A stretch of 64,000 nt of DNA, taken from the NCBI GenBank assembly GCA_018970025.1, contig JAGWXF010000003.1:62001-126000 (forward strand). Reading direction: 5' to 3'. A program made the position numbers and the translations under genes. Numbering within the stretch: position 1 is the first letter of the stretch; each line of letters starts with the position of its first letter. The stretch is from Actinomycetales bacterium (GTDB lineage: Bacteria; Actinomycetota; Actinomycetes; S36-B12). Shown here one piece after another: positions 19,977-39,919 of the stretch. The notes below the pieces were generated by a model, which saw nothing but the letters and a program-made list of their open reading frames with translations, ran no database searches and was not told where the DNA came from.

Positions 19977-20106
19977 TGGCCCTCCTGGATCTGCGCCTGG
20001 CAGGTGAACAGCACCACCGTAGGGGTGCCGTGATCCGGGTGGCGCACGTCGTTCCATCATGCGGAACGCATGGTCGGCATCCGCCACACGGGATCCGGCG
20101 GATGTC

Positions 20107-20205
20107 ACGAACCCACGACGGTCGTCCGCCCGCCCCGTTACGAACCCACGACGGTCGTCCGCCCGGCCCGTTACGAACCCACGCCGGTCGGCCGGCCGGC
20201 TCGGG
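20107..20205. repeat. 33-bp tandem repeat (two near-identical copies plus a diverged third) at the 3' end of the IclR gene
   Basis: ACGAACCCACGACGGTCGTCCGCCCG(C/G)CCCGTT at 20107 and 20140; next copy diverged. Confidence 0.85.
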
Positions 20206-21079
20206 ACGGCCGCTGCATCGTCCCCGAGAGCCGCTTGGCGGCGGCCATCACCAGCCGAGCGTGCCGATCCTGGTGCTCGCCGAGATCGTCCACGGACCCG
20301 GTAATGGAGATGGCCGCCATCGCCACTCCATGGCGATCGAGCACGGCCGCGGCCACCGAGGCCAGGTTCGGCATGAGCTCGGCGTTCGCCGTTGCGTACC
20401 CCATCCGGCGCACCCCCGCCAGTGCCGCGGCGAAGCCGGTCTCGTCCGCGACGGTCTGCGGGGTGAAGACCGGGAAGCCGGCCTCGATACGCGCCTGGCA
20501 GGCGACCGGATCATGGGCGCAGATCGCCTTGCCGCTGGACGTCGCATGCAGGGGCCAGCGGCGCCGGTACTCCCCGATCGCCCGCATGCCGCGCAGGGTC
20601 GACAGCCGCTCCAGGTACAGCACGTCGGCCCCCGATGCCACGGCCAGGTGCACCGTCATGCCGCTGCGCTCGCGCAGCTCCTCCAGGAGCACCTGCGACT
20701 CCCGGCGCAGGTCGATGCGGCTGACCGCGAGGTCCCCCAGCTCGAACAGCCGGACTCCCAGGCGGTACTTGCTCGTCGCCGGGCTCTGCTCGACCAGGCC
20801 CCGCGAGGCCAGGGTGGTCAGCAGCCGATGGGCCGAGCTCTTCGACATGCCGATCCGGCGGGCGATCTCGGAGACCCCGAGCTCGGCATCCTGGGCAAAG
20901 CAGTCCAGGACCTCCAGCGCAGCGGCAACCGAGCGCAGCCCGCCATCCTGCCGGGACGTCGAATCTTGCCTGGACGTCGAATCTTGCCTGGACGTCGAAT
21001 CTTGCCTGGACGTCGGACGAGTCCGGGCCGTCCTGCCCTGCCCGTCAGCCGAGGGCGTCGAGCTCGGCGATCGCGGCAT
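20171..21079 (-). CDS. IclR-family regulator
   Basis: [47 protein letters not shown]...[12 protein letters not shown]. Confidence 0.92.
20955..21014. repeat. 18-bp in-frame tandem repeat in the IclR N-terminus
   Basis: GACGTCGAATCTTGCCTG at 20955, 20973 and 20991; encodes (S)TSRQD repeats. Confidence 0.95.
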
Positions 21080-21920
21080 CGTCCAGGGTGATCAGGGCAG
21101 CGGCGCAGTTCTCCTCCAGGTGCGCCACCGAGCCCGTCCCCGGGATCGGCAGCATGGCGGGAGACCGCTGCAGCAGCCAGGCCAGCGCGACCTGCGACGG
21201 GGTGCAGCCCAGCCGCTCGGCGATCCCGGCCAGCGGGCCGTCGGCTGCGACCAGGGTGCGCCCGCCGAGGGGGAACCATGGGATGAACCCGATGCCATCG
21301 GCGGTGCACACGTCCAGGAGCGCCTGGCTCTGCTGCTGCTGCAGGTGGTAGAGGTTCTGCACGCTGACCACGGGCAGCCCCTGCTGGGCGGCCCGCAGGT
21401 CATCGACCGAGACCTCCGACAGGCCGACATGCCGGATCAGCCCCTCCTGCTGCATCTCGCGGATCGCCCCGAACTGCTCGTCCGCCGGGACCTTCGGGTC
21501 GATGCGGTGCAGCTGCCACAGGTCGATTCGCTCGACCCCTAGGCGGCGCAGGGACATCTGCACGCACTGGCGCAGGTACTCGGGCCGGCCGACAGCCTGC
21601 CACTGATCGGGCCCCTGCCGGGTCAGGCCGCCCTTCGTCGCGATGAGGATGCCGTCGTACGGGTACAGGGCCGCACGGATGAGGTCCTCGCTGACTTCCG
21701 GACCGTAGCTGTCGGCCGTGTCGACGAAGTCCACGCCGAGCTCGACGGCCCGGCGCAGGACGGAGATCGCGATCTCAGGGTCGGCCGGATCGCCCCAGAT
21801 CCCGGGGCCGGTGATGCGCATGGCTCCGAAGCCCAGCCGTCGGACGGCGATCGGGTCGTCGGTGAAGCCGCCAAGGACGAAGGTGCCGCTGGCAGCGATC
21901 GGTGCAGTGGGCTCGCTCAT
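21045..21920 (-). CDS. Aldo/keto reductase
   Basis: [60 protein letters not shown]. Confidence 0.92.
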
Positions 21921-22056
21921 GGCCGAAACCTACGCGACCGCAGATGCGCGATCCCGGCCAGTGGCGTAGAGTGGTAGTTGAAACTTGAACGATCAGCACG
22001 ACCCGACCAGCACGACCCGACCAGCACGCATGATCGAGCAGACCAGGAGTCACGCC

Positions 22057-23022
22057 ATGCCCGCAGCAACCGCCGACCCGCTGACCCTGCCCCGAGTGTC
22101 CGCCTCCGCGCAGGCTCGCCCCCGCGCGGTGACCTCGCTCACAACGGCACCGACCGGATATGAGGGCGAGGGCTTCCCCGTCCACCGCGCATTCGCGGGA
22201 GTCAGCCCGGCAGACCTCGACCCGTTCATCCACCTCGACCAGATGGGCGAGATCGAGTACGCGCCGGGCGAGCCGAAGGGCACTCCGTGGCACCCGCATC
22301 GCGGCTTCGAGACCTTCACGTATCTCATCGACGGCCAGTTCCTGCACCAGGACTCCAATGGCGGTGGCGGCACCATCAATGACGGCGGCACCCAGTACAT
22401 GACCGCCGGCGACGGCATCCTGCACATCGAGACACCCCCCGAGCACCTGGTCATGTCTGGCGGCCTGTTCCACGGCCTGCAGCTGTGGATCAACCTGCCG
22501 CGGGCCAAGAAGCGCATCGCTCCGGCCTATCAGGACCTGCAGGGCCAGGACCTCACGATGATCACCAGCGCCGACGGCGGCGCCATCATCCGAGTGCTCG
22601 CCGGTGAGATCGACGGCCATGCCGGGCCAGGCATCTCGCACACGCCACTGGCACTGGCACACGTGACCCTGGCACCGGGTGCCCAGGTCGACATCCCATG
22701 GCGAGCCGATTTCAACGCCCTGGCCTACGCGCTGGCCGGCAGCGGCGCGGTCGGGGCCGAGGGCCGGCTGTTCCGCGCCGGGCAGCTGGCCGTCCACGGT
22801 GCCGGCGACACCATCCGCATCTCGGCGTCACCGCGCCAGGACTCCCGCACCCCGAGCCTGGAGGTGTTCGTCCTCGGCGGGGTGCCGCTGCGCGAGCCGA
22901 TCGTGCAGTACGGGCCGTTCGTCATGAGCTCCAAGGCCGAGGTCATGGAGGCATTCGAGGACTTCCAGGCCGGACGCTTCGGGCGCATCCCGGCGAACGC
23001 GATCCAGCCCTTCCGCGCCTGA
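22057..23022 (+). CDS. Pirin family protein
   Basis: DPFIHLDQMGEIEYAPGEPKGTPWHPHRGFETFTYLIDGQFLHQDSNGGGGTINDGGTQYMTAGDGILHIETP; start uncertain (ORF opens at 21985). Confidence 0.92.
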   Translation: MPAATADPLTLPRVSASAQARPRAVTSLTTAPTGYEGEGFPVHRAFAGVSPADLDPFIHLDQMGEIEYAPGEPKGTPWHPHRGFETFTYLIDGQFLHQDSNGGGGTINDGGTQYMTAGDGILHIETPPEHLVMSGGLFHGLQLWINLPRAKKRIAPAYQDLQGQDLTMITSADGGAIIRVLAGEIDGHAGPGISHTPLALAHVTLAPGAQVDIPWRADFNALAYALAGSGAVGAEGRLFRAGQLAVHGAGDTIRISASPRQDSRTPSLEVFVLGGVPLREPIVQYGPFVMSSKAEVMEAFEDFQAGRFGRIPANAIQPFRA

Positions 23023-23076
23023 TCCACTGCGGCGCTTCATGCCCAGGCCTGCGTCAGGCTCAGGCGCGCGTCAGGC

Positions 23077-24258
23077 TCAGGACTCCGGCAGGCCGATGCT
23101 CGCCCGGGCCACCTGCATGCCCCGGGCGACGGCGCCCATGATCGCCGCGCTGCCGTGCAGTGACGACTCATGCACCTTGATCGGATACGGGGCAACGCGC
23201 GCGAGCTCCCGGCGCACGCCATCGAGGACGAACGGCACCGACCCGATGCGCCCGGCGAGCACCACGAACTGCGGATCGACCAGGACGCAGACGGCGAGGA
23301 TGGCGCGGGCGATGAGCTCGGCCTCCTGCTGCGCCGTCGCGACCGCCGCCGGCTCCGCCTCCTGCAGGGCCCGCAGGAATGCCTCCAGGGTTGGGCGGCC
23401 GGCCGCGAGTCCGCGCTCGGTCCGCTCGGCCCGGTAGCGCGCGAGCAGCCCGCTGAGCCCGGCCTGCGACTCCAGGGCCCCGATCCGCGCCACTGGGCCG
23501 ACCAGCCGCGCTGACCCCAGCGGCAGGTAGCCCGCCTCGCCGGCAGCACCCCGACTGCCGCGCAGCAGCTCCCCGTTCAGCATCAGGCCCATGCCGACAC
23601 CGGTGTCGACGAGCAGGAAGACGAAGTCATCGGCACCCCGGGCGATGCCGTAGCGATGCTCCGCGATCGCGGCGAGGTTCACGTCATTCTCGAAGGCGAT
23701 GGACGCATCGAACCGCCTGCCGAGCAGGCGATGCAAGGCACGGTCGTCCAGTCCGGGCACGTTCTGAGCCAGCGCCCGGTGGTCGGAGCCGGGCTCCAGG
23801 ATGCCCGGAGCTGAGATGGAGATGGCTCGCACTGCATCAGCGTCAACCCCCGCCTGCTGCAGGACCTCGTCCACCAGCGCGGCCGTCCCGGAGATGAGCC
23901 GATCCGGCCGGGGCAGCGGGGCATGCTGCCGGGCGCGCTGGTCGCCGGTGATGTCGGCGATGACGGCACCGATGCCGTCGCCGTCGAAGGCCAGGGCCAG
24001 CACCATGCCCGCCTCCGGGTTCAGCTGCACCAAGGAGGCCGGCCGGCCGATCGAACCGGTGCGGATACCGGCCTCGCGCAGCAGGCCGGTCGACAGCAGC
24101 TCATCGACCAGGGCATTCACGGTCGGCTTGCTCAGGCCGGTGGCCGCCGCGATCGCGACCCGGCTGACCGGCTCCGCCTCGGCTGAGATCGCTGCCAGGA
24201 TGCGGCTCTCGTTGTGCTGCCGGACGAACACATGCCGATCGACATGCGCGTCGGTCAT
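23077..24258 (-). CDS. ROK-family transcriptional regulator (NagC/XylR type)
   Basis: N-terminal HTH (SRVAIAAATGLSKPTVNALVDELLSTGLL) plus ROK domain (VDTGVGMGLMLNGELLRGSRGAAGEAGYLPLG). Confidence 0.9.
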   Translation of the reverse strand: MTDAHVDRHVFVRQHNESRILAAISAEAEPVSRVAIAAATGLSKPTVNALVDELLSTGLLREAGIRTGSIGRPASLVQLNPEAGMVLALAFDGDGIGAVIADITGDQRARQHAPLPRPDRLISGTAALVDEVLQQAGVDADAVRAISISAPGILEPGSDHRALAQNVPGLDDRALHRLLGRRFDASIAFENDVNLAAIAEHRYGIARGADDFVFLLVDTGVGMGLMLNGELLRGSRGAAGEAGYLPLGSARLVGPVARIGALESQAGLSGLLARYRAERTERGLAAGRPTLEAFLRALQEAEPAAVATAQQEAELIARAILAVCVLVDPQFVVLAGRIGSVPFVLDGVRRELARVAPYPIKVHESSLHGSAAIMGAVARGMQVARASIGLPES

Positions 24259-25100
24259 CCCTTGACCGCGCCCTGGCTCAGCCCGCGAACCAGCCGGCCC
24301 TGCATCACCACGGTCAGCAGGGCGATCGGGACGATCGCCAGGCTCGAGGCCGCGGCAAGGGGGCCCCAGTCCAGGGTGCGGGCGCTGACGAATCCGGAGA
24401 TGAACACCGGCAGGGTCTTGGTCGCCTCACTGCCGAGGACCACCGGCAGCAGGAACTCATTCCAGGCCAGCAGCCCGACGAACAGGCCGGTCGCGACGAC
24501 CCCGGGCAGGGCCAGGGGGAACACCACCGTGCGGAAGACCTGCGCCCCCGACGCGCCGTCGATGACGGCGGCCTCCTCCAGCTCCATCGGGATGCCCTGG
24601 AAGTACGGGGTCATGATCCAGATCGCGAAGGGGAGGTTGACCATCGCGTAGAGCACGATCAGCATGGGCATCTTGCCCAGCAGCCCCACCCCCGCCAGCA
24701 CGTCGTAGAGCGGCACCACCAGCACGACACCGGGCATGGCCCGCAGCAGGATCAGCGAGACCTCCAGCGGCCGGCGACCGCGGAAGCGGGGTGCGCGTGC
24801 CAGCGCGTAGGCCGCCAGCGAGCCGATCAGCAGCGCCACGATGGTGGACCCAGCCGTCACGATGATGGTGTTGGCCATCACCCGGATGAAGGTGGGATCC
24901 TCGAACAGCTGCGAGTAGTTCTTCCAGGTCGGGGTGAAGCCCACGATGACCGGCGGCAGGCGGAAGGTATCGACGCGGTCCTTGATCGACGTGGAGACCG
25001 TCCAGAAGATCGGGAACAGCATGACGGCCGAGGTCACCGTCAGCACCGCATACAGCCCGATCGAGCCCAGCGGGCTGCGACCGCCCGCCCGACGCGCCAT
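24255..25100 (-). CDS. Carbohydrate ABC transporter permease (MalG type)
   Basis: EEAAVIDGASGAQVFRTVVFPLALPGVVATGLF EAA loop. Confidence 0.92.
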   Translation of the reverse strand: MARRAGGRSPLGSIGLYAVLTVTSAVMLFPIFWTVSTSIKDRVDTFRLPPVIVGFTPTWKNYSQLFEDPTFIRVMANTIIVTAGSTIVALLIGSLAAYALARAPRFRGRRPLEVSLILLRAMPGVVLVVPLYDVLAGVGLLGKMPMLIVLYAMVNLPFAIWIMTPYFQGIPMELEEAAVIDGASGAQVFRTVVFPLALPGVVATGLFVGLLAWNEFLLPVVLGSEATKTLPVFISGFVSARTLDWGPLAAASSLAIVPIALLTVVMQGRLVRGLSQGAVKG

Positions 25101-26137
25101 CACGACCGCTCCGCCAGTGTCGACACCCGGCGCCACAGGAAGTAGATCGGCAGCGTGATCAGCATGAGCACCACGCCGATGGCCGAGGCGCGGCTGGTCG
25201 CCAGGAAGGTGAAGGCGACGTTGTAGTCGAGCATGCTCACCGTCTGCGTCGCGGTGCCCGGCCCGCCCCTGGTGAGGATGAACACCACGTCGAAGATCTT
25301 GAAGCCGTCGATCACCCGGATCATCAGGGTGACCAGGATGACCGGCATCAGAGCCGGCAGGGTGACATGCCGGAAGACCTGCCATCCCGATGCCCCGTCG
25401 ACCCGGGCGGCCTCCTCCGGCGAGGTCGGCAGGGAGGCAAGGCCTGCGGTGAGCATCAGGACCACGAGCGAGAGCGCCTGCCAGCTGTCGACGAAGGTCA
25501 CCGCGAACAGCGCCGGCCAGGGGGCACCGAGCCAGTCGACGCCCGGCAGGCCGAGCACCCCCAGCCACCAGTTGATGATGCCCAGCTCGGGGTTGTACAT
25601 GAACCGCCACATCAGGCCCACGGCCACCGGGGTCAGCAGCATCGGCACCAGGATCGCGGTGCGGAAGACGCCGCGGCCGCGCATCTGCTGATGCAGCAGC
25701 AGGGCCAGGGCCATGCCGAGCGGGAACTGCAGGGCCAGGCCGAGGGCGAGGATCAGCAGGGTGACGACCAGGGCCTCGCCGAAGACCGGGCTCAGCACAT
25801 CGGTGCGATAGTTGTCCAGGCCGACGAAGGACGGCTCCATCGGGAAGCCCAGGGTCTTGTCGTAGAACGACAGGTAGATCCCGACCCCGAGCGGCAGGAA
25901 GAACATCGGGACGAGGAAGACCCACGTGGGCAGGGTCAGCAGGACGGCACTGCGTGCCCGACGCTCGGCGATCCAGTTGCGCGCCGGCGGCGCGCCGGCC
26001 AGCCGTCCATTCGACGCCACCGGGCCCGCCGACGAGACCGAGCCCGCCGACGAGACCGAGCCCGCCGACGAGACCGAGCCCGCCGAGGGGGCGCCAGATG
26101 CTGGCGCCCCCTCCGCGGTCATCGCCTGCTCGGCCAT
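25100..26137 (-). CDS. Carbohydrate ABC transporter permease (MalF type)
   Basis: EEAARVDGASGWQVFRHVTLPALMPVILVT EAA loop; SAGSVS repeat at N-terminus. Confidence 0.92.
   Translation of the reverse strand: MAEQAMTAEGAPASGAPSAGSVSSAGSVSSAGSVSSAGPVASNGRLAGAPPARNWIAERRARSAVLLTLPTWVFLVPMFFLPLGVGIYLSFYDKTLGFPMEPSFVGLDNYRTDVLSPVFGEALVVTLLILALGLALQFPLGMALALLLHQQMRGRGVFRTAILVPMLLTPVAVGLMWRFMYNPELGIINWWLGVLGLPGVDWLGAPWPALFAVTFVDSWQALSLVVLMLTAGLASLPTSPEEAARVDGASGWQVFRHVTLPALMPVILVTLMIRVIDGFKIFDVVFILTRGGPGTATQTVSMLDYNVAFTFLATSRASAIGVVLMLITLPIYFLWRRVSTLAERS
26025..26090. repeat. 18-bp in-frame tandem repeat
   Basis: CCCGCCGACGAGACCGAG at 26025, 26043 and 26061 plus partial; encodes SAGSVS repeats on minus strand. 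Confidence 0.95.
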
Positions 26138-26200
26138 GTCACTGCCATGTGCCCGAGGCCATGGGTACCCACGCTCCTTCGCTTACCAGTGCTCCTCCGC

Positions 26201-27532
26201 CTACTTGGGCTCCTTCGCCAGCACCGGCTCCAGTGCCGACTGCATGGCATCGAGGCCCTCCTGGACGGGCACCTCGCCGGAGAGGATCTTGGCGAGGTTG
26301 TCGGAGGCCACCTTGTCGAACTCCGGCCACACCACGATCTGCGGGTAGGTGTTCACCACCGCATCCGGGCTGATGTTGAGCAGCTTCAGGTACGGGTACT
26401 TCGCCTGCAGGGCAGGGTCATCGATGATCGAGATCCGGCCGATGGCGGCAGCGCCGTTCTCCAGCAGGGTCTTGGCATTGGACTTGCCCAGCATGTACTC
26501 CAGGAACTTCCAGCCGCACTGCGGGTTGGGCGAATCCGACGGGATGCCGATATTCCAGCCCGCCAGCTCGACCGCATTGACCTTGCCCGCCGGCAGCGGC
26601 GCCACCGCGATGCTCGCCGCATTCTTGGACGAGGTCGGGTCGAACACCCCGGCCGCATAGCCGGAGTACTGCACCATCTGGCCGATGTCGGAGCCGACGA
26701 ACTGCAGGGTCACGTCGTCACCGGTCGCGCCCAGGGCACCGCTCGGGGATGACGCCAGCAGGCTCTTGTAGTACTCGGTCGCCGCTGCGGCCTCCGGGGT
26801 GTTGACGGTCGGCTTGAAGTCGGAGTCGTAGAGCGCCCCGCCGAACGACCAGACCAGCTGCATCCACCACCAGGTGGTGTTCGGGCCGAAGCCCATCATC
26901 TGGCCGGCTGCCTCGCCGGACTTCTGGATCGCCTCGGCATTCGCCTTGTACTCGTCCCAGGTGGTTGCCGGCTTCAGGCCCAGCTTGTCGTAGATGTCCT
27001 GCCGGTACCACTGGATGAACGGCTCGGTCGACAGCATCAGGCCGTACTTGGTGCCGTCGAAGTCGCCGTAGTTCTGCAGCGACGGCGGGATGTCGCTGAT
27101 GTCGTACTCCGCCGAGTTCGCCGCCCAGTCGCCGATATCGGTCAGCGCCCCGGCCTTGGCGAATGCCGCCAGGAAGGTGTTGTCGAACTGGACCACGTCG
27201 AAGGCGCCCTGCTTGGACTGGATCGACAGCAGTGCCTTCTGGTGCGCGGTGCCGTACTCCACCTCGCTGACGTTCACGTTGATGCCGGTTGCCTCGGTGA
27301 ACGCCGGGATCATCGCCTTCATCGCATCAGCGCTCGGGCTGGGGATGAGGAAGACGTTGATCGCCTCGCAGGTCGCCTCGGCAGGCGCGCTCGCTGCGCT
27401 GGACCCTGCTGGGGCGGACTCGGCCGCGGCCGACCCCGAGGTGCTGGTGCTGCTGCTCGAGCATGCGGCCAGGGCGAGACCGGCGACTGCCAGGCCCGCG
27501 ATGGCTGCGATGCTGCGTCGCGTCATCGTCAT
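26201..27532 (-). CDS. Extracellular solute-binding lipoprotein of sugar ABC transporter
   Basis: Lipobox LALAACSSSS; family-1 SBP-like sequence; upstream of the two permeases. Confidence 0.92.
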   Translation of the reverse strand: MTMTRRSIAAIAGLAVAGLALAACSSSSTSTSGSAAAESAPAGSSAASAPAEATCEAINVFLIPSPSADAMKAMIPAFTEATGINVNVSEVEYGTAHQKALLSIQSKQGAFDVVQFDNTFLAAFAKAGALTDIGDWAANSAEYDISDIPPSLQNYGDFDGTKYGLMLSTEPFIQWYRQDIYDKLGLKPATTWDEYKANAEAIQKSGEAAGQMMGFGPNTTWWWMQLVWSFGGALYDSDFKPTVNTPEAAAATEYYKSLLASSPSGALGATGDDVTLQFVGSDIGQMVQYSGYAAGVFDPTSSKNAASIAVAPLPAGKVNAVELAGWNIGIPSDSPNPQCGWKFLEYMLGKSNAKTLLENGAAAIGRISIIDDPALQAKYPYLKLLNISPDAVVNTYPQIVVWPEFDKVASDNLAKILSGEVPVQEGLDAMQSALEPVLAKEPK

Positions 27533-27661
27533 GCAGGACTCCTTTCGGCAGGCCGATCGGCCGCCTGGTGGTTGACGAGCAGGTTAGTACGCAATATTGA
27601 CGAAGTCACGCGCTTTGTAAATACTGTTCGCCAATTCACGGCAGCGGTGGAGGGAGCAGGG

Positions 27662-28576
27662 GTGAGCGATGGGCGCAGCAGCCTTGACCGGCTCGCGGGG
27701 CGCCCGATCCTGGCCTTCGTCGCCCATGCCGACGACTGCGCCCTGTTCATCGGCGGCACGATCCGGCTCCTCGCCGACGCCGGGTGCCCCATCACCCTGG
27801 TCCGGTTCACCGACGACTGCACTGACTCCGACGGACTGGACCCGTCCGAGACCATCCGGCGCAATGACCGAGAGCTGCAGGAAGCGTGCGAGATCCTCGG
27901 CATCCGGCACCGGCACGACCTGGGCTACCCGTCCGACACCCTCGGCGACGTGCGCCGCGGCGAGCTGCGCGAGCATGCGATCCGGCTGATCCGCCAGGTG
28001 CGGCCCTATGCCGTGCTGACCTTCGACCCGTACGCGCGATTCGGCGAGGACAACCAGGATCACATCCGCATCGCCCAGGAGGTCGACGAGGCGTTCTGGA
28101 CCTCGATGTTCGACAAGCACCATCCTGAGCACCTCCAGGCCGGCCTCGCACCCCACGGGGTCGTCGAGCGCTGGTACTTCGGGCGACGGGTGACCGAGCC
28201 GACGGACGTGATCGACATCAGCGCGGCGATGCCCGCCAAGACCGAGGCAGCCGTCGCGCACCGCACCATGATGGGCAACCTGATGCGCCAGCTCACCCTG
28301 ATGGGCCGGACCGCCGAGGTCGACAGCGACTGGCTCGGCGGCGTGCTCGGCGACCAGGATGCGATCGTCCGGCGGATGGTCGGCCACTCGACGACGGAGG
28401 CCTTCCGGGTCGTGCGCTTCAGCGGGTTCGCCGCCCTGTTCGACGATGCGCCCCGGCATCGCACCATTCCAGATGCAGCCAGGACAGATGCAGCCAGGAC
28501 AGATGCAGCCAGCACGCCCGATGCCAGCCCTCGCCCGCCGACCAGCGAGCGCCCCGACCTGAATGGATCCGCATGA
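27662..28576 (+). CDS. PIG-L/LmbE-family deacetylase
   Basis: PILAFVAHADDCALFIGGTIRLL, RNDRELQEACEILGIRHRHDLGYPSD, NQDHIRIAQ; GTG start inferred. Confidence 0.88.
   Translation: MSDGRSSLDRLAGRPILAFVAHADDCALFIGGTIRLLADAGCPITLVRFTDDCTDSDGLDPSETIRRNDRELQEACEILGIRHRHDLGYPSDTLGDVRRGELREHAIRLIRQVRPYAVLTFDPYARFGEDNQDHIRIAQEVDEAFWTSMFDKHHPEHLQAGLAPHGVVERWYFGRRVTEPTDVIDISAAMPAKTEAAVAHRTMMGNLMRQLTLMGRTAEVDSDWLGGVLGDQDAIVRRMVGHSTTEAFRVVRFSGFAALFDDAPRHRTIPDAARTDAARTDAASTPDASPRPPTSERPDLNGSA
28471..28515. repeat. 15-bp in-frame tandem repeat at the deacetylase C-terminus
   Basis: AGATGCAGCCAGGAC x3 (third diverged); DAART repeat. Confidence 0.9.
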
Positions 28577-29661
28577 GCAGCCCGGACCACGCCAGCGCCC
28601 ACGCCAGCACCAACGCCAGCGCCAGCACCAACGCCGCCGACCCGTCAGCCTTCGTCTCCCGGCACGGTTTCGCCACCACGTACGGCCACGGCGTTGCCAC
28701 CGGGGTCGGCGACCGACCAGGCTCGGTCGTCGCGGTCTGCGATCCGGAGGTCTGGCAGTGGTTCGGGCCTGCCTTCGGCCCGGCACCCGACCTGCGCATC
28801 GACGCGGTCGAGCTCTCCCCCGCCCACCTCGACGAGCTCGCCGGCTCCGTTCCGGCAGACGCCACGATCATCGGGATCGGCGGCGGGGTCGCGATGGACG
28901 TCGCGAAGTGGGTGCACTGGCGCCGCGGACTGCCGTTGATCCAGGTGCCGACCCTGCCGAGCGTCAACGCCTGCTTCACCCGGATGACGGCACTGCGCGA
29001 CGGCGGCCGCGTGCGCTACGAGGGCAACGCCATCCCCGAGCAGGTCATCGTCGACTTCGACATCTTCCAGGCCGCGCCCCCGGCGCTGGTGCGCGCCGGG
29101 ATCGGCGACGTGCTCTCCTGCCATACCGCCCTGTGGGACTGGCGGGTCGGCGTGGCTGCCGGCTTCGACCCGGCCTGGGATGACGACAGCGCCGGCTCGT
29201 CGATGCGCTACATCGATGCCCTGCGACGGGCCGCGCCCGGCATCCACGACGTGACCGATGCCGGCATCGCGTCGCTGATGGAGCTGCATCGCGAGATCGG
29301 CTGGCGCTGCCACGAGATGCAGCATGCGCGCTTCGAGGAGGGCAGCGAGCACTTCTTCGCCTACTGCTTCGAGGAGGTCACCGGGCGGACGATCCTGCAT
29401 GGCGAGCTGGTCAGCGTGGGCGTGCTCATCATGTCCGCCATCCAGGGCAACAATTCGTGGCTGCCGCGGTCGATCGTCCACTCGGCCGGCACGCGGCATC
29501 GTCCGCAGGACCTCGCGATCACCTGGGACGAGATCGATGCCACCCTGGATCACCTCCGGGCCTTCACCACGGCCGGCGGCTATTGGCACTCGGTGATCCA
29601 GGAGGGGTTCGACGTCGGCCGGGCGAAGGAGCAGGCGCGTGCCGCCCTCGACTTCGACTGA
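28573..29661 (+). CDS. Iron-containing alcohol dehydrogenase / glycerol-1-phosphate dehydrogenase-like protein
   Basis: IIGIGGGVAMDVAKWVHW, VPTLPSVNACFT, IGDVLSCHTALWDW, EEGSEHFFAY, LHGELVSVGV metal-ligand motifs. Confidence 0.85.
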   Translation: MSSPDHASAHASTNASASTNAADPSAFVSRHGFATTYGHGVATGVGDRPGSVVAVCDPEVWQWFGPAFGPAPDLRIDAVELSPAHLDELAGSVPADATIIGIGGGVAMDVAKWVHWRRGLPLIQVPTLPSVNACFTRMTALRDGGRVRYEGNAIPEQVIVDFDIFQAAPPALVRAGIGDVLSCHTALWDWRVGVAAGFDPAWDDDSAGSSMRYIDALRRAAPGIHDVTDAGIASLMELHREIGWRCHEMQHARFEEGSEHFFAYCFEEVTGRTILHGELVSVGVLIMSAIQGNNSWLPRSIVHSAGTRHRPQDLAITWDEIDATLDHLRAFTTAGGYWHSVIQEGFDVGRAKEQARAALDFD

Positions 29662-30673
29662 TCTCCGCCAGCCAGGCTCGGTACCCGTCGCCGGCATCGA
29701 CCTCGGCGGCACCAAGGTTCGCGGGGCCATCGCCGACCCCAGCGGTCGCATCATCGCCGAGTCCACCGAGCCCACCCGCGCCAGCGGGGCACGCGACGTC
29801 ATCACCCAGATCGCCGGGATGGTGCGCTCGCTCGGTGCGCAGTGCGGGGTCCGGCCCGAGCTGCTCGCCGTCGGCTCCCCCGGGGTCGTCGACGAGCGCG
29901 GGCGATTCCAGCTGTCCTTCAATATCGACGAGCTCGCCGATCTCTCCCTGGCCTCCGAGATCGCGGCCCACGTCGGCGTGCCGGTGATCGTCGACAACGA
30001 CGCGAACATGGCCGCGCTCGGCGAGCAATGGCAGGGGCTGGCCCGAGGCTGCCGCGACTTCGTCGTGCTGTCGGTCGGTACCGGCCTGGGCATGGGCCTG
30101 GTCATCGACGGGCGGCTGCATCGGGGCTCGCGGGGCTTCGCCGGGGAGATCGCCTACCTGCCGATCGGCGAGGACCCGAGCGTTGCGCAGGCCCGTCGAT
30201 TCGGGGCCCTGGAGTGGGCCGCCGGCACGGCCGGCATCCGGCGTGCGCTGATGGCGTCCCTGGACTCCGGGCAATACCCGGCGACCGGGCTGGCACCCGA
30301 GGCCGACGTCCATGCCGTCTTCGAGGCCGCCCGCGCCGGCGACCAGCTCGGCATGGCCCTGGTGGAGCACGAGGCTGGCCTGCTCGCCCACGCGATCCTC
30401 GCCGTCGCCGCGGTCATCGACCCCGAGCTGGTGATCATCACCGGCGGCATCGGCGCGGACCCGCTGCTCATCGACCGGCTGCGGGCCCGGCTGGACGACA
30501 TCAGCCCGCACCGGATCCGCGTCGAGCGCTCGATCCTGGGCGATCGATGCGGGGTCATGGGGGCGCTCGCGGCCGCCCGGGCCACCGCCGCGCAACCCAG
30601 GGCCCATGAACCCCAGGCCCATGAACCCCAGGCCCATGAACCCGATTTCCAGGAAGGGCACTCCCATGTCTGA
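29639..30673 (+). CDS. ROK-family sugar kinase
   Basis: VAGIDLGGTKVRGAIADPSG, VIVDNDANMAALGEQW, VLSVGTGLGMGLVIDGRLHRGSRGFAGEIAYLPIG. Confidence 0.92.
   Translation: MPPSTSTDLRQPGSVPVAGIDLGGTKVRGAIADPSGRIIAESTEPTRASGARDVITQIAGMVRSLGAQCGVRPELLAVGSPGVVDERGRFQLSFNIDELADLSLASEIAAHVGVPVIVDNDANMAALGEQWQGLARGCRDFVVLSVGTGLGMGLVIDGRLHRGSRGFAGEIAYLPIGEDPSVAQARRFGALEWAAGTAGIRRALMASLDSGQYPATGLAPEADVHAVFEAARAGDQLGMALVEHEAGLLAHAILAVAAVIDPELVIITGGIGADPLLIDRLRARLDDISPHRIRVERSILGDRCGVMGALAAARATAAQPRAHEPQAHEPQAHEPDFQEGHSHV
30601..30644. repeat. 15-bp in-frame tandem repeat at the ROK kinase C-terminus
   Basis: GGCCCATGAACCCCA x3; AHEPQ repeat. Confidence 0.95.
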
Positions 30674-31907
30674 GCTCGCCGCCCTCGGCGGGACGCCGAT
30701 CCGCAGCGCCCCCTACCCGGCCTGGCCGCACTACGACGACAGCGAGCGCGACGGCCTGCTGCGCGTCCTGGAGAGCCGCAACTGGTGGTCGAGCCAGGGC
30801 GTCGAGGTCCGGGCATTCGAGCAGGAGTGGGCCGCCTTCACCGGTGCCCCGCATGCCGTCGCGATGACGAACGGCACCCACACCCTGGAGGCGGCCCTCC
30901 TCGCCACCGGCATCGGCGCAGGCGATGAGGTGATCGTCCCCGACTGGTCGTTCTTCGCGACCATCGGCGCAGTGCTCGCCGTGAACGCCGTCCCGGTCAT
31001 CGTCGACGTCGATCCGCGCACGGGCACGATGGACCCAGCCCTGGCCGAGGCCGCCATCACCGGGCGAACGAGGGCGATCCTGGTGGTGCATGTCTGCGGC
31101 AGCGTCGCCGATATGGACGCCATCACGGCCCTGGCCCAGCGACATGGCCTGCGGGTGATCGAGGACTGCGCCCACGCCCACGGCAGTACCTGGCACGGGG
31201 TGCATGCCGGCCTCCTCGGCGACGCCGGCTCGTTCTCCTTCCAGGCCAGCAAGCTGATGACTGCCGGCGAGGGCGGTGCCGTGATCACCCGGCATGACGA
31301 CGTGGCCGCGCTGCTGGCGTCCTACGTCAGCTGCGGGCGCGACCCCGGCACCTGGTACTACCGGCACTTCCGGCTCGGCGAGAACTGGCGGATGACCGAA
31401 TGGCAGGGCGCCGTCCTGCGCTGCCAGCTGGCCCGCTTCCCGCAGCAGCAGGCCAACCGTGCCGCCCATGCCGACCTACTCAATGCCGAGCTCGCCCGCA
31501 TCCCCGGTGTCACGCCCCAGGGCCGGCTGCCCGGCTGCGACAGCCAGGGCAACTACTGCTACGTGGTCATGGTCGACCCGGACGAGTTCGGCGCATCGCG
31601 CGACCACGTCCGCACGGCACTGCTGGCCGAGGGCATCCCGCTGACGACGTCCTATCCGCCGCTGCACGCACTGGAGCTGTTCAGCGACCCGGCCGGCCTG
31701 GCCCCTCGCATCAAGGACCGCTCAGCCCTGCCCGACTACGCGCGCCAGTCCTTCCCGGTCACCGAGCGCCTGGCCGCCACCTCGCTGTGGTTCACCACCT
31801 CGGTCCTCAACGGCACCGATGAGGACGCCCTCGACGTCGTCCGTGCCATGGAGAAAGTGCATCGCCTTCGCGGGCAGCTGGCGGAGGTGGATGCAGTTGC
31901 GTACTGA
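30666..31907 (+). CDS. DegT/DnrJ/EryC1/StrS-family PLP aminotransferase
   Basis: MTNGTHTLEAALLATGIGAGDEVIVPDWSFFAT, VIEDCAHAHGSTW, FSFQASKLMTAGEGGAVITR PLP lysine. Confidence 0.93.
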   Translation: MSELAALGGTPIRSAPYPAWPHYDDSERDGLLRVLESRNWWSSQGVEVRAFEQEWAAFTGAPHAVAMTNGTHTLEAALLATGIGAGDEVIVPDWSFFATIGAVLAVNAVPVIVDVDPRTGTMDPALAEAAITGRTRAILVVHVCGSVADMDAITALAQRHGLRVIEDCAHAHGSTWHGVHAGLLGDAGSFSFQASKLMTAGEGGAVITRHDDVAALLASYVSCGRDPGTWYYRHFRLGENWRMTEWQGAVLRCQLARFPQQQANRAAHADLLNAELARIPGVTPQGRLPGCDSQGNYCYVVMVDPDEFGASRDHVRTALLAEGIPLTTSYPPLHALELFSDPAGLAPRIKDRSALPDYARQSFPVTERLAATSLWFTTSVLNGTDEDALDVVRAMEKVHRLRGQLAEVDAVAY

Positions 31908-33009
31908 TCAGCAGGCCGACGTGATCGGCGAGCCATTCGACACCAAGCACGCCGACGTGATCGGCGAGCCATTCGACACCGTCCACGCCGACGCCATCGA
32001 GGTCCTTGCCGACCTCGGACCGACGGCCATCATCGCGGCCAATGACCCGCCATGGGCGGCCATCAGCACCGCGCTCGCGGACCGCGGCATCACCGGCCTG
32101 GGCGTTGTGCTCGCGACCAGCATGGAGGAGGCCGACCTCGCGCAGCTTGCCGCCGCCCAAGACGAAGCGATCGAGCGGGGCGCCACCTGCGTGATCGGGG
32201 TCGGCGGCGGCACGGCCATCGACACGGCCAAGTACCTGGCCTGGGCACGAGGCCTGCCGGCCGTCTACATCCCCACTATCGCCTCGGTCGATGCCACCTT
32301 CACCGATGCGGTCGGCATCCGCCGGGACCGCCGCGTGGCGTACATCGGGCAGGTGCGGCCCCGCGAGGTGGTGATCGACCTGCCCCTGATCACCTCGGCA
32401 CCGCCACGGCTCAATCGCGGCGGCATCGGCGACATCCTGTCCTGCCATACCGGGCTGTTCGACTGGCGGCTGGCGGCTGACGCGGGCCTGGGCGCACCCT
32501 GGGATGAGCGGCTCGCCGCCCTCGGGCGCACCCTGCTCGACGAGCTCGAGGCCGCGTCCGCGGATATCCATGCGGCATCGGCGGCCGGCGTCGGCTTCCT
32601 GCTGGACGCCTACCGCAGGATCGGCGCCGCCTGCGCGGCCGCCGGCCACTCGCGCTTCGAGGAGGGCAGTGAGCACTTCCTCGGCTACGCCCTCGAGGAG
32701 GTCACCGGCGAGCACTACGTCCACGGCGAGCTCATCAGCATGTGCGTGGTCGCGATGAGCACCATCCAGGGCAATGACCCCGAGCGAGCCGCGCGGATCA
32801 TCCGGGCAGCGGGCACCAGCGCCCACCCGTCATCACTCGGCCTGGACCAGCCCACCGTGGTCGGCGCGCTCATGGGCCTGGGCGCCTATGTCAAGGCCGA
32901 GGGCCTCGACGACTGCATCGCGACCATGGCGACCATCAGCGAGCCGACGGCCCAGGCCGCGTGGGCTGCCATCGACGCTCTGCCGGGTCACGCAAGGAGC
33001 GCATCATGA
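31891..33009 (+). CDS. Second iron-containing alcohol dehydrogenase / glycerol-1-phosphate dehydrogenase-like protein
   Basis: VIGVGGGTAIDTAKYLAWARGLPAVYIPTIASVDATFT, IGDILSCHTGLFDW, EEGSEHFLGY, VHGELISMCV; paralogue of 28573-29661. Confidence 0.85.
   Translation: MQLRTDQQADVIGEPFDTKHADVIGEPFDTVHADAIEVLADLGPTAIIAANDPPWAAISTALADRGITGLGVVLATSMEEADLAQLAAAQDEAIERGATCVIGVGGGTAIDTAKYLAWARGLPAVYIPTIASVDATFTDAVGIRRDRRVAYIGQVRPREVVIDLPLITSAPPRLNRGGIGDILSCHTGLFDWRLAADAGLGAPWDERLAALGRTLLDELEAASADIHAASAAGVGFLLDAYRRIGAACAAAGHSRFEEGSEHFLGYALEEVTGEHYVHGELISMCVVAMSTIQGNDPERAARIIRAAGTSAHPSSLGLDQPTVVGALMGLGAYVKAEGLDDCIATMATISEPTAQAAWAAIDALPGHARSAS
31915..31986. repeat. 36-bp in-frame tandem duplication
   Basis: GCCGACGTGATCGGCGAGCCATTCGACACC(AAG/GTC)(CAC/CAC) at 31915 and 31951. 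Confidence 0.95.
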
Positions 33010-34124
33010 CCGCCACCGGCCAGCGCGAGGACGAGCGCGTGCAGATCGCGGTCATCGGCGGCGCCTTCGCCGGAACGCTGCATGCCGAGGCGATCAGCCT
33101 GACCACCACCGCCAGGGTGAGCGCCGGCGTCTCGCGCTCTGCGCAGACCCGGGATGCCTTCGCTGCCCGATGGGACGTCCCCGCCTATCCGACGCTGGAG
33201 GCCCTCCTGGCGGACGTCACGGCAGGGGTCGTGGCGTGCGATGCGGTATCCCTGGCGGTGCCCAATCACCTGCACCGACCGCTGACCGAGCTGGCGGCCG
33301 CGCACGAGCTGTCGGTGATCTGCGAGAAGCCCCTGGCCCCCACCTATGCCGATGCCGAGGCGATGGTGCGGGCCTGCCAGGAGGCCGGCGTGCACCTGCT
33401 CTACGCCGAGCAGCTGTGCTTCGCCCCCCGCTACCGGCGGGTGCAGCAGCTGATCGCCGCGGGATCCTTCGGCGACCTGGTGCAGCTCCAGCACTGGGAG
33501 CGGCACGGCGGCCCGCATGCGTCGTGGTTCTACGACCCGGTGCAGTCGGGCGGCGGCGTGCTGCTGGACATGGGCTGTCATGGCATCGGCGTCGCCCGCT
33601 GGCTGAAGGGCGATATTCCGGTCGTCGGGGTCAGCGCCCAGCTCGGCACGTTCGTCCATCATGAGCACCCGGTCGAGGATCACTCCCTGGTCACCCTGCG
33701 CTTCGCCGATGGCACCATCGCGGTCATCAACTCCTCCTGGGCAGCGCCGGGCGGGATCGACGAGCGGCTGGAGGTCCTGGGCACGGCAGGTCACGTGATG
33801 GCCGACCTCGCCCGCGGGCAGTCCCTGCTCGCCTACAGCGACGCCGGCTTCGATGCCACCGCCGAGAAGTCGGTGCAGCAGACGGGCCTGGCCTGGATCG
33901 CCCATGACGAGGCCTGGACGTGGGGCTGGCATGGCGAGTTCGCCCATTTCGCGGACGTCCTCGCCGGTCGTGCCGAGCCGCTGCTCACCGGCGCCGACGG
34001 CCTGGAGATCCTCGGCATCGTGAGTGCCGCCTACGTGGCCGCCGCCGAGCATCGCGTGGTGACACCCCCCTGGCCGACCGGCGATCACCTGCTGGTGCAG
34101 CCCTGGCTCGACCGGCGCAGGTGA
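33006..34124 (+). CDS. Gfo/Idh/MocA-family oxidoreductase
   Basis: QIAVIGGAFAGTLHAEAI, VSLAVPNHLHRPL, VICEKPLAPTYADAEAM; ATGA overlap. Confidence 0.92.
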   Translation: MTATGQREDERVQIAVIGGAFAGTLHAEAISLTTTARVSAGVSRSAQTRDAFAARWDVPAYPTLEALLADVTAGVVACDAVSLAVPNHLHRPLTELAAAHELSVICEKPLAPTYADAEAMVRACQEAGVHLLYAEQLCFAPRYRRVQQLIAAGSFGDLVQLQHWERHGGPHASWFYDPVQSGGGVLLDMGCHGIGVARWLKGDIPVVGVSAQLGTFVHHEHPVEDHSLVTLRFADGTIAVINSSWAAPGGIDERLEVLGTAGHVMADLARGQSLLAYSDAGFDATAEKSVQQTGLAWIAHDEAWTWGWHGEFAHFADVLAGRAEPLLTGADGLEILGIVSAAYVAAAEHRVVTPPWPTGDHLLVQPWLDRRR

Positions 34125-35182
34125 GCCAGCCCAGCGCCCCGGCCGGCACCGTGATGCTGGACGAGATCCGGCAGCAGGCGCGGCTCGCCGCCGACTGGGC
34201 CGGCGCCGGCGGGTACCGGGTCGATCACATCGCGCACGCGGTGGCGTCCTACGCCCCAGCATCGGTGACCCTCATCGCTCGCGGCACCAGCGACAACGCG
34301 GCCGGGTATGCGAAATACCTGCTGGAGATCATGGGCGGCTATGTCGTCAGCAGCGCCTCCCCCTCTGCCGTCACCCTCTACGGCGCCAAGCCCCGGCAGG
34401 CACGGTCGCTGTGCATTGCGGTGAGCCAGTCGGGCCAGTCGCCTGACCTGCTGCGGGCCATGTCGGCCATGCGCGAGGCCGGGAGCCTGGGCATCGCGGT
34501 GACGAATGATCCAGCCGCCCCCCTGGCCGTGCAGGCCGACTTCGTGGTCGACCTCGCCGCCGGCGTCGAGCATGCCGTGGCCGCCACCAAGACCTTCACC
34601 TGCGAGCTGCTCGCGCTGCTCGACCTGGCCACCGCCATCTGCGGCACCCAGGCACCCGAGCGCGCCGGCATCGCCGGCGCCATCGCCTCAGTGATCGCCC
34701 CGCACGCGGATCTCGACGATGCCGCCCGCCTGCTCGGATCCGCGCTGGCCAGCGCCGGCCACCTGCTGGTCGTCAGCCGGGGTGCCAGCACCCCGATCGC
34801 CCACGAGGGGGCGCTGAAGATCATGGAGACCGTGGGGCTGCCGGCGCTCAGCTACAGTGCCGCCGACCTCGAGCACGGCCCGATCGCCTGCGTGCACGCG
34901 GGAACCCCGGTGATCGTGATCGACTCCGCCGGCCCGGCAGCCGGCTCGCTGGCCCACGTCATCGCGCGGCTGGTCGACCTCGGTGCCGAGGTCATCCAGG
35001 TCGGGTCCGGCGATGCGGCCCCCGGCATCCGAGCGCACATCCCCGTTCCGCGGCTCGATCCGCTCGTCGCGCCCATCGCCGAGGCCATCCCGCTGCAGCT
35101 GCTGGCCCACCGCCTGGCAACCGCGATGGGCCACGACCCCGATCAGCCGCCGGGCCTGACGAAGGTCACCCGCACGTCATAG
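34121..35182 (+). CDS. SIS-domain sugar isomerase/deaminase-like protein (GlmS C-terminal/AgaS type)
   Basis: LIARGTSDNAAGYAKYLLE, IAVSQSGQSPDLLRAM, GVEHAVAATKTFTCEL, SRGASTPIAHEGALKIMET; GTGA overlap. Confidence 0.9.
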   Translation: MSQPSAPAGTVMLDEIRQQARLAADWAGAGGYRVDHIAHAVASYAPASVTLIARGTSDNAAGYAKYLLEIMGGYVVSSASPSAVTLYGAKPRQARSLCIAVSQSGQSPDLLRAMSAMREAGSLGIAVTNDPAAPLAVQADFVVDLAAGVEHAVAATKTFTCELLALLDLATAICGTQAPERAGIAGAIASVIAPHADLDDAARLLGSALASAGHLLVVSRGASTPIAHEGALKIMETVGLPALSYSAADLEHGPIACVHAGTPVIVIDSAGPAAGSLAHVIARLVDLGAEVIQVGSGDAAPGIRAHIPVPRLDPLVAPIAEAIPLQLLAHRLATAMGHDPDQPPGLTKVTRTS

Positions 35183-35196
35183 CCGGATGGCCGTGG

Positions 35197-35991
35197 CTAC
35201 TGGGGAGCGAGCGTGCCGGAGAAGATCTGCCAGGCGAGCAGGGACTTCGCAACCAGGCTCAGAATGATGTAGGCCCGCTCCCCGCGCATGTAGTCGGCCC
35301 ACTTGCCGATCTGCTTGTACTGCAGCCACTGCACGATCGCGAAGCAGTTGAAGAAGATGAACAGCGAGATGATGATCCCGTAGACGAAGCCCGGCGTCTG
35401 CACGTCGCTGGTCGACCCGGGGGCGATCACGAAGAACACCACGATGATCCACGGCACGATCCCGGTCATGCAGCCGAAGATGAACGGCAGGAAGCCGCCG
35501 CTGCCCGGCTTCTCGTACTTCTCCTGCACCCAGCCGAAGAAGATCATCGAGGCGTTGACCCCGAAGATCGCGATCAGCGCCGCGACGTCGGTGATGCCGA
35601 CGATCTGGCAGATCAGGACGATCATCACCGAGGAGCTGATCGAGTACTCGACCCAGCGGAAGTAGTTGTGATGCTCCACCAGCCCCGCCGAGTAGCGCTG
35701 GTAGAACGGCGGTACCGAGACGATGAAGTGGAAGAAGGCCGACAGCAGGAAGAACAGTGCGACGCCCCACCCGATGCGCGAATCGAGCAGGGTCACCGGC
35801 TCGGACAGCGGCGTGCCGGGCGGGCCGGCCATGTAGCTGGCCGTGATCGGCAGGGTGAAGTCGTTGGCGAGTGCGAGGACGGCGATCGCCTGCACGAGGT
35901 GGGCGAAGCCGGCGATGATGTTCCAGCGGCGCAGGCGCTGCGCGGTGATCGGGCTGGGCGTCGAGACGGCAGGACTATCGGCAATGGCCAT
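35197..35991 (-). CDS. Heliorhodopsin
   Basis: 264 aa, seven hydrophobic segments; NIIAGFAHLVQAIAV (TM1), FFLLSAFFHFIVSVPPF (TM2), YFRWVEYSISSSVMIVLI (TM3), SLVAKSLLAWQIF (TM7 retinal lysine). Confidence 0.93.
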   Translation of the reverse strand: MAIADSPAVSTPSPITAQRLRRWNIIAGFAHLVQAIAVLALANDFTLPITASYMAGPPGTPLSEPVTLLDSRIGWGVALFFLLSAFFHFIVSVPPFYQRYSAGLVEHHNYFRWVEYSISSSVMIVLICQIVGITDVAALIAIFGVNASMIFFGWVQEKYEKPGSGGFLPFIFGCMTGIVPWIIVVFFVIAPGSTSDVQTPGFVYGIIISLFIFFNCFAIVQWLQYKQIGKWADYMRGERAYIILSLVAKSLLAWQIFSGTLAPQ

Positions 35992-36092
35992 AAGGCATGG
36001 TCCCACGCCCGCCTGGCCAGCGCCTGCCGACACCCCGATAGCCACTCCTGACGCGCATCCGCTCACCGACCTGCATCTGGCAGCATGCGGTC

Positions 36093-37244
36093 ATGCCTGG
36101 CCGCCCTGGCGACGATGACATCGTCCCGATCGATGCCCAACTCGCCTGGCAGGAGGAGTACTGCAGGTCCGCGGGGTCGCCCACCGCAGCCCTGCTGCTG
36201 CAGGCCGTCCGCGACGACCTCGCCGCCGCGGGCGTGAGCCTCGAGGTGCTGCCCGAGCGGACGAGATTCGGCGACCTGCTCGGCCTTCGCATCATGGCCG
36301 TCCTGCACCGACTGGCCATCGAGCGCCAGGCGCCGGCCATCGCCATCCGCGTGCCGACCCTGGGCGGGATCGCGCCGGATGCCAGCGCGAATCCAGCCCG
36401 GGAGCGCATCAGATTCCAGCAGGCCGTGATCGAGACCATCGCCGGGCATCTCGGTCAGGTCCGCCAGGCCATCGCCGAGGTACCGCAGACCAATGAGGTG
36501 GGCCGCAGCGTCCCGCTGCGCATCGCCCTCAGCCGGATCGCAGCCCGCCACGACTCGGGGCATCAGGAAGCTCTCGGCGAGCGACCGCGCATGCCCGTCC
36601 GACTGCTCGAGATCGGCGCCTCCGCAGGGCTCAACCTCCGGGCCGATCACCTGCCCGGGGATCCCAGCCTGGAGGCGGGCCCGATGCCCGCCATCGTCGA
36701 GCGGCTCGGCTGCGACCTGCACCCCATCGACGCCACCACGACCGCAGGGCGCGCCCGGCTGACCAGCTACGTGTGGCTGGACGATGTGGAGCGCTACGAG
36801 CGCCTGCGGCAGGCCTTCGAGGTCGCGGCCCGTGTGCCCGCCACGGTGATCCGCCAGGATGCCGTCGAGTTCGTCCGCGGCCTGCGCCTGCGCGAGGGCA
36901 CCATCACCGTGCTCTGGCACAGCGCGATGTGGATCTACCTGCCACCGAAGGAGCGCCAGGGCGTCGAGCGGCAGATCCTGCGCCTGGCATCACAGGCCAG
37001 CGCCAGCATGCCCCTGTGGCATGTCTGGTGGGAGTGGTCGGCCGACGCGGCGCCGACCCAGGGCACATCCAGGCAGGGCCCATCCACCCAGGGCCCATCC
37101 ACCCAGGGCCCATCTCCCCAGGGCTCGACCGTCCCGGAGACGTTCGCCCTGGGTGCCCGAGCCTGGTGCGGGACGGACGCCGACGGCGTACCCGTCACGC
37201 TCGCCACCGGCATGTCGCATGGCCGGCAGGTCCGACTCGCGTGA
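36093..37244 (+). CDS. DUF2332 family protein
   Basis: LAWQEEYCRSAGSPTAALLLQAV, LLEIGASAGLNLRADHL, VLWHSAMWIYLP; TQGPS repeat near C-terminus. Confidence 0.85.
   Translation: MPGRPGDDDIVPIDAQLAWQEEYCRSAGSPTAALLLQAVRDDLAAAGVSLEVLPERTRFGDLLGLRIMAVLHRLAIERQAPAIAIRVPTLGGIAPDASANPARERIRFQQAVIETIAGHLGQVRQAIAEVPQTNEVGRSVPLRIALSRIAARHDSGHQEALGERPRMPVRLLEIGASAGLNLRADHLPGDPSLEAGPMPAIVERLGCDLHPIDATTTAGRARLTSYVWLDDVERYERLRQAFEVAARVPATVIRQDAVEFVRGLRLREGTITVLWHSAMWIYLPPKERQGVERQILRLASQASASMPLWHVWWEWSADAAPTQGTSRQGPSTQGPSTQGPSPQGSTVPETFALGARAWCGTDADGVPVTLATGMSHGRQVRLA
37074..37118. repeat. 15-bp in-frame tandem repeat in DUF2332 gene
   Basis: CAGGGCCCATCCACC x3; QGPST repeat. Confidence 0.93.
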
Positions 37245-37251
37245 GCGCACG

Positions 37252-38433: not shown

Positions 38434-38469
38434 GACGCCAAGTGTGGACGCAGGCAGGGGCACGGCAGG

Positions 38470-39848: not shown

Positions 39849-39919
39849 CGTCCCGGGCAATCACATGCAGACCAATCACCACCAGGGCCTTCACACCCAG
39901 GGCGAGTCGACCAGCCCGA

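Follow-up and report, generated by a model that had tools for sequence, protein, structure and literature searches.

In the Shewanella pathway to 8-amino-3,8-dideoxy-manno-octulosonate (Kdo8N), a metal-dependent alcohol dehydrogenase, KdnB, and a DegT/DnrJ/EryC1/StrS aminotransferase (DegT), KdnA, act in sequence on a sugar. A DegT enzyme is paired with a Gfo/Idh/MocA dehydrogenase (Gfo) in the 3''-amination steps of gentamicin and kanamycin biosynthesis, where GenD2/GenS2 and KanD2/KanS2 act on pseudotrisaccharides; in vitro, GenS2 and GenD2 put a hydroxyl in place of the 3''-amine in kanamycin B and tobramycin (PMC4340712). In the kanosamine branch of aminoshikimate metabolism, RifL, RifK and RifN oxidize, transaminate and phosphorylate, and in the Bacillus NtdA/NtdB/NtdC operon a DegT and a Gfo enzyme act at C3 of glucose (PMC8788734). 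Deacetylation by a PIG-L enzyme comes first in the Thermococcus Dac-GlmA-GlmD pathway, which also uses an SIS protein like glucosamine-6-phosphate (GlcN-6-P) deaminases (PMC6566704). Here we describe a locus from an Actinomycetales bacterium of a mainly freshwater, uncultured group, in a stretch of 64,000 nucleotides (contig JAGWXF010000003.1, positions 62,001 to 126,000; hereafter the window), that joins a DegT-Gfo pair to a sugar importer, a PIG-L deacetylase, a ROK kinase, an SIS protein and two iron-type alcohol dehydrogenases (Fe-ADH 1 and 2) related to glycerol-1-phosphate dehydrogenase (G1PDH). We favor, tentatively, a substrate-inducible operon by which an N-acetylated amino sugar, or its short glycoside, is imported and broken down, with deacetylation as the first step. 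With slightly less assurance, we propose that such loci represent a route of amino-sugar degradation not described before, present in Actinomycetota that are uncultured and mainly from fresh water and in a few other phyla. Deacetylation of an acetamido sugar would be followed by nitrogen removal by an aminotransferase-reductase pair, reversing the chemistry of aminoglycoside 3''-amination, and the two Fe-ADH clades would be the signature enzymes of the route.

The locus shares parts with each of the known systems. Like GenD2/GenS2 and KanD2/KanS2, its Gfo, nearest to theirs by sequence and fold, is linked to a DegT partner, but identity is only ~30%, and genes for an importer, a deacetylase, a kinase and an SIS protein accompany the window pair. 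Like the RifKLN branch, it has a DegT nearest to 3-amino-5-hydroxybenzoate (AHBA) synthase, a Gfo-type oxidoreductase and a sugar kinase; unlike that branch, it lacks the aminoDAHP (amino-3-deoxy-arabino-heptulosonate 7-phosphate) and amino-3-dehydroquinate (aminoDHQ) synthases and the phosphatase RifM, and its Fe-ADHs are not DHQ synthases. Compared with Dac-GlmA-GlmD, the operon has no GlmA exo-glucosaminidase and has DegT, Gfo and two Fe-ADHs in addition. An earlier reading of the window by a model that saw only the sequence (the original prediction) had likened the pair to NtdA/NtdC. This likeness did not hold, as NtdA matches DegT at just 96 bits; moreover, no NtdB phosphatase is found among the operon genes, and the importer, PIG-L, SIS protein and Fe-ADHs are extra. 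KdnB (5k8c) and KdnA (5k8b) both turn up in searches for structural relatives but are biosynthetic, act at C8 of Kdo and are distant in sequence (15% identity for KdnB). In the open-licence literature we found no characterized pathway with this gene set, in agreement with the original prediction, and likewise none for kanosamine or aminocyclitol catabolism. The gene set combines known families in a new way but does not amount to a novel kind of system.

Conservation of the gene set

Eleven genes of the predicted families were found at 23077-35182 of the window with Pfam and NCBIfam models and by homology (Table 1). The plus-strand operon (27662-35182) encodes, in order, PIG-L, Fe-ADH 1, the ROK kinase, DegT, Fe-ADH 2, Gfo and the SIS protein. 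It diverges from a minus-strand unit (27532-23077) encoding a sugar-binding protein (SBP), permease 1, permease 2 and a ROK repressor. The original prediction had described just this, a repressor and importer divergent from seven genes with overlapping stops, and families and layout agree with it.

Scanning a collection of species genomes with Fe-ADH 2 returned 63 homologous loci. Most are from Actinomycetota (including Acidimicrobiia and Nanopelagicaceae), with others from Chloroflexota, two Alphaproteobacteria and single members of other phyla. Their maps rest mainly on tblastn of the window proteins, because open reading frame (ORF) calls in these loci are mechanical. PIG-L and DegT are each present in 39 of the 63 loci, permease 1 in 28, Gfo in 22, SBP in 17, ROK in 16 and SIS in 15. 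None of the partner families occurs in 20 control loci, which surround different Fe-ADH genes from the same order and are longer on average. For PIG-L and for DegT the difference (39/63 against 0/20) gives a Fisher P of ~2e-7 each, which is indicative as the loci are inter-related. The co-occurrence of the families raised in the original prediction thus extends to many lineages.

One locus (L016) has the same eight-gene order from SBP to SIS, two others (L041, re-fetched as L126, and L077) encode nearly the same gene set in other orders, and L025 has the whole set except SIS. The set is split over two contigs in genome G177 (L024 and L049). DegT is encoded in all or nearly all loci with Gfo. 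Of 30 loci with Fe-ADH 2, 27 contain DegT and 20 contain Gfo; of 35 loci with Fe-ADH 1, 23 contain PIG-L and 21 contain permease 1. Relatives of Fe-ADH 2 are encoded in only 5 of 166 genomes of the host order, and the Fe-ADH profile was detected in 4 of 397 genomes of the phylum (Actinomycetota) and in 1 of 200 from the order of a Phenylobacterium carrier. This rarity suggests horizontal spread or repeated loss. No close plasmid-borne named relative was found, the best among the matches listed having ~36% identity. One version of the operon (L021, on the same contig as G052:C22) looks decayed, with only a short Fe-ADH 1 remnant, no PIG-L match by tblastn and a stop codon inside the Gfo match range.

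Enzymes of the operon

The best solved matches of Gfo are GenD2 (6nor) and KanD2 (6jw6), both by sequence and by fold (AlphaFold2 model, predicted local distance difference test score (pLDDT) 87.9). A second Gfo subgroup, from other loci, has the same two best matches. K108, D188 and H192 are invariant. The solved proteins closest to DegT are AHBA synthase and 2-deoxy-scyllo-inosose (DOI) aminotransferases, and its pyridoxal phosphate lysine, K196, is conserved. The predicted DegT-Gfo pair is present, but of the GenD2/KanD2 type, which exchanges 3-keto and 3-amino hexoses, and not of the NtdC or StrI type.

Fe-ADH 1 and Fe-ADH 2 form separate sister clades in the tree (support 100/99 and 99/97). 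Both clades keep a glycine-rich NAD motif and an Asp-His-His metal site, of which D179, H260 and H276, as aligned to G1PDH, are invariant. The AlphaFold2 model of Fe-ADH 1 (pLDDT 92.7) matches the fold of glycerol dehydrogenase and G1PDH, with KdnB further down the list. The likeness to G1PDH (EgsA/AraM) proposed in the original prediction thus stands for fold and metal site. It does not extend to function: Fe-ADH 1 and 2 score 95.9 and 132.1 bits against the NCBIfam equivalog with a cut-off of 413, so we rejected a G1PDH activity, and unlike EgsA/AraM they lie in a context of amino-sugar metabolism. It is very improbable that the paralogs are cyclases akin to DHQ or DOI synthase that build a carbocycle from a hexosamine phosphate: they belong to the same superfamily and have weak AroB matches (36-39 bits, cut-off 305) and DHQ synthase structures among their hits (best 5e-9), but the match to G1PDH is far better (7e-42) and Asp holds the first ligand position of a dehydrogenase-type metal site, whereas sugar-phosphate cyclases use Glu-His-His. 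We rejected AroB, DOI synthase and aminoDHQ synthase on this metal site and profile match.

The closest solved relatives of PIG-L are archaeal diacetylchitobiose deacetylases (Dac), a likeness at family level, and H22, D24, D25, H134, H153 and H154 are conserved. The ROK kinase has a DLGGT motif and conserved N120 and D121 but no CxCGxxGC zinc motif. The SIS protein is similar to GlcN-6-P deaminases, its best NCBIfam models being NagB-II (193 bits, cut-off 430) and the GlmS type (179 bits, cut-off 381). Its family conserves E229, K233, E236, H252 and K348, which we take to match the catalytic set of the GlmS isomerase.

Hexosamine context

Genes of hexosamine metabolism adjoin the related loci. 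In Chloroflexota the neighbors include glycoside hydrolase family 18 (GH18), a polysaccharide deacetylase, a BadF-type kinase and GH4, while other relatives have GlcN-6-P deaminase, GH84, GH2 and a GH35 with a GlmA-like domain (in L058; its cluster is in L046 and L047). The acI-type loci adjoin GntR/UTRA, SIS_2, GNAT and GH1. Regulators in the relatives are of the GntR/UTRA, DeoR and ROK types. With the importer, these regulators and the glycosidase, deaminase and kinase neighbors favor the amino-sugar side of the original prediction, while its aminocyclitol option is weaker, with support at family level only.

Proteins with a Ceramidase_alk domain (the N-terminal domain of neutral ceramidases) recur beside PIG-L, Fe-ADH and DegT (L046, L047, L020, L022, L027 and relatives). 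They are perhaps a second amidohydrolase for the same substrate.

Outside the sequence available to the original prediction, the host also encodes a separate, standard N-acetylglucosamine (GlcNAc) operon (contig C4, L134, 3877-9490) with NagA, a zinc-type ROK kinase, GNAT, GntR/UTRA, SIS_2 and GH84. Its GntR, SIS_2 and GNAT, on a contig other than that of the window, are homologues of the acI-locus genes. No canonical NagB scored above cut-off in the host genome, which is incomplete. As the host already has this operon, we rejected the window operon as an ordinary GlcNAc operon; its substrate is probably not plain GlcNAc but a different or additional amino sugar.

Proposed pathway

In the scheme we propose, the substrate would enter by way of the SBP and both permeases, an ATPase in trans powering the import, and the ROK repressor would control both divergent units. 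PIG-L would take off the N-acetyl group. DegT would then transfer the exposed amine to a keto acid, and the resulting ketone may be reduced to a hydroxyl by an enzyme using NAD(P)H (Gfo, Fe-ADH 2 or both). Together these two steps would be GenD2/GenS2 chemistry in reverse, most likely at C3, while Fe-ADH 1 may carry out some linked oxidation or reduction. Phosphorylation by the ROK kinase would probably be at C6, and the resulting 2-amino sugar 6-phosphate would be isomerized or deaminated to fructose 6-phosphate by the SIS protein.

The analysis shows the gene set, its linkage, the family of each protein and the conservation of catalytic residues; the substrate, the order of the steps, the carbon position and the direction we infer. 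The importer, repressor, deacetylase and hexosamine neighbors argue for catabolism, and the constant pairing of DegT with a reductase argues that an amine is swapped for a hydroxyl through a ketone. The reverse reaction of GenD2/GenS2 is a precedent for reading such a pair as a deaminating module (PMC4340712). As the SIS protein would handle a 2-amino group, the simplest substrate may be a hexosamine with an acetamido group at C3, alone or besides one at C2. Aminocyclitols and ordinary chitooligosaccharides are possible substrates.

Several observations weigh against this scheme. Two Fe-ADHs and Gfo are more reductases than it needs in its simple form, and the AHBA- and DOI-type aminotransferases closest to DegT normally run towards amination. 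No operon gene reaches the NCBIfam equivalog score for any characterized enzyme. Naming the substrate from the SBP was rejected, since its solved relatives bind many different sugars. Finally, some versions do without DegT: seven acI-type genomes retain SBP, PIG-L and Fe-ADH 1 but have no DegT. The pathway therefore looks modular, with PIG-L and Fe-ADH 1 as its core and DegT, Fe-ADH 2 and Gfo as an add-on.

Alternative explanations

It is unlikely, though likelier than the other alternatives, that the operon serves the catabolism of chitin- or chitosan-type oligosaccharides in the manner of archaeal Dac-GlmA-GlmD. PIG-L, ROK and SIS would then convert GlcNAc units to fructose 6-phosphate, and a partner sugar, an aglycone or an uncommon by-product would be left to the Fe-ADHs, DegT and Gfo. 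The kinship of PIG-L with archaeal diacetylchitobiose deacetylase fits this, as do the GlmA-like GH35 and the GH18, GH84 and GlcN-6-P deaminase beside relatives, and the Thermococcus pathway follows the same deacetylate-first logic (PMC6566704). The window operon, however, encodes no glycosidase, and the host has NagA and GH84 in its separate GlcNAc operon. Furthermore, the most constant partners are the aminotransferase and the dehydrogenases, for which Dac-GlmA-GlmD has no need.

Less likely still is a role in biosynthesis or remodeling, with Gfo or Fe-ADH oxidizing a sugar hydroxyl, DegT aminating the product and a glycan or small molecule as its destination. The closest characterized relatives of DegT and Gfo are biosynthetic, RifK, RifL and RifN make and phosphorylate kanosamine (PMC8788734), and two loci (L020 and L022) encode PIG-L, Fe-ADH 2 and DegT without an adjoining importer. 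Against this, the window locus has both importer and ROK repressor, no glycosyltransferase, nucleoside diphosphate-sugar or phosphatase gene was seen in the operon among ORFs and Pfam matches, and the relatives carry catabolic regulators and glycosidases.

Aminocyclitol catabolism, in which DegT and Gfo would turn an inosamine-type compound into an inositol, PIG-L would deacetylate and the Fe-ADHs would oxidize the cyclitol, seems improbable. DegT does match DOI aminotransferases, and inositol 2-dehydrogenase (IolG) is the best NCBIfam model for Gfo. Its score of 143.6 bits is nevertheless far under the cut-off of 355, which also speaks against the StrI type, and the nearer relatives of Gfo are GenD2 and KanD2. 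Cyclitol breakdown would leave the SIS and ROK proteins and the hexosamine neighbors without a role.

Importer and organization of the locus

The importer is a putative CUT1 system, its SBP recognized by Pfam, both permeases by homology to permeases of related loci, and candidate ATPases in trans only. Permease 1 has 46-56% identity to permeases adjoining Fe-ADH/PIG-L, and permease 2 is homologous to those of loci such as L126 (40%). The SBP is 87% identical to that of L016 (partial) and 50-60% to those of other loci. As predicted, the locus has no ATPase gene; three genes for MalK-type ATPases with a MalK-OB domain lie elsewhere in the host genome (2.64 Mb in 39 contigs, 89% complete), and homologous locus L025 has an ATPase gene adjoining. 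A motif check found no kinase DxGGT motif in the ROK repressor.

Table 1. Features of the locus, in window coordinates. Pfam bit scores of the locus proteins are above gathering cut-offs. The last column gives the start of a gene and the stop of the preceding gene. ABC, ATP-binding cassette; HTH, helix-turn-helix.
Feature	Position	Strand	Evidence	Start/preceding stop
ROK-family repressor	23077..24258	-	Pfam ROK 120 bits, MarR_2, HTH_IclR; HTH and ROK domain	
ABC permease 2, MalG type	24255..25100	-	ORF; start ATG 25100 or GTG 25103	
ABC permease 1, MalF type	25100..26137	-	ORF and homology	
SBP	26201..27532	-	SBP_bac_1 152 bits	
Overlapping divergent promoter-like sites	27593..27625	both	sigma-70 consensus match only	
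PIG-L deacetylase	27662..28576	+	PIG-L 73 bits	
Fe-ADH 1, G1PDH-like dehydrogenase, clade 1	28573..29661	+	Fe-ADH_2 45 bits	28573/28576
ROK sugar kinase	29639..30673	+	ROK 154 bits	29639/29661
DegT/DnrJ/EryC1/StrS aminotransferase	30666..31907	+	323 bits	30666/30673
Fe-ADH 2, G1PDH-like dehydrogenase, clade 2	31891..33009	+	Fe-ADH_2 58 bits	31891/31907
Gfo/Idh/MocA dehydrogenase, GenD2/KanD2 type	33006..34124	+	GFO_IDH_MocA 79 bits	33006/33009
SIS protein, GlcN-6-P deaminase/isomerase-like	34121..35182	+	SIS 94 bits	34121/34124
Short in-frame tandem repeats	28470-28512, 28587-28635, 30596-30643, 31910-31993, also 20945-21015, 26019-26086, 37056-37124			

At each of the six plus-strand junctions the genes share 4 to 23 bases, making translational coupling likely. 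Because the ROK repressor starts at 24258 and permease 2 ends at 24255, these two genes overlap as well, and SBP, the permeases and the repressor look like a single divergent unit. In the divergent gap, TTGACG-17-AATACT at 27597-27625 (+) and TTTACA-17-AATATT at 27621-27593 (-) stand back to back. They are the only sigma-70-like sites found in 23000-36100 and are supporting evidence only, because shuffled sequences give a mean of 0.9 expected. An operator search of this gap found one imperfect inverted repeat in the window and nothing convincing in common with L016. The window has no tRNA, and its 20000-40000 region has no Rfam match.

In-frame short tandem repeats whose period is a multiple of three occur at gene ends, including several operon junctions, and encode repetitive protein tails (HEPQAHEPQA in the ROK kinase, for example). 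A heliorhodopsin gene (35197-36066, minus strand; NCBIfam HeR 345.7 bits with a cut-off of 100, Pfam 335 bits) converges on the end of the SIS gene. On the other side, at 17207-20108 and 20171-21079 (minus strand), reading the translations points to a likely meta-cleavage tail operon beside an IclR-type regulator, with putative genes for an aldolase, an acylating acetaldehyde dehydrogenase and a keto-pentenoate hydratase.

Implications

Annotation would label both Fe-ADH clades as glycerol or glycerol-1-phosphate dehydrogenases, a function that neither their scores nor their gene context supports. Some carriers of the locus are acI/Nanopelagicaceae-type genomes. These bacteria are among the most abundant in lakes, and the conserved importer and dedicated enzyme set point to a testable class of substrate among the dissolved sugars that they may use. 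A catabolic relative of GenD2/GenS2, if true, would also bear on the origin of the aminoglycoside amination enzymes.

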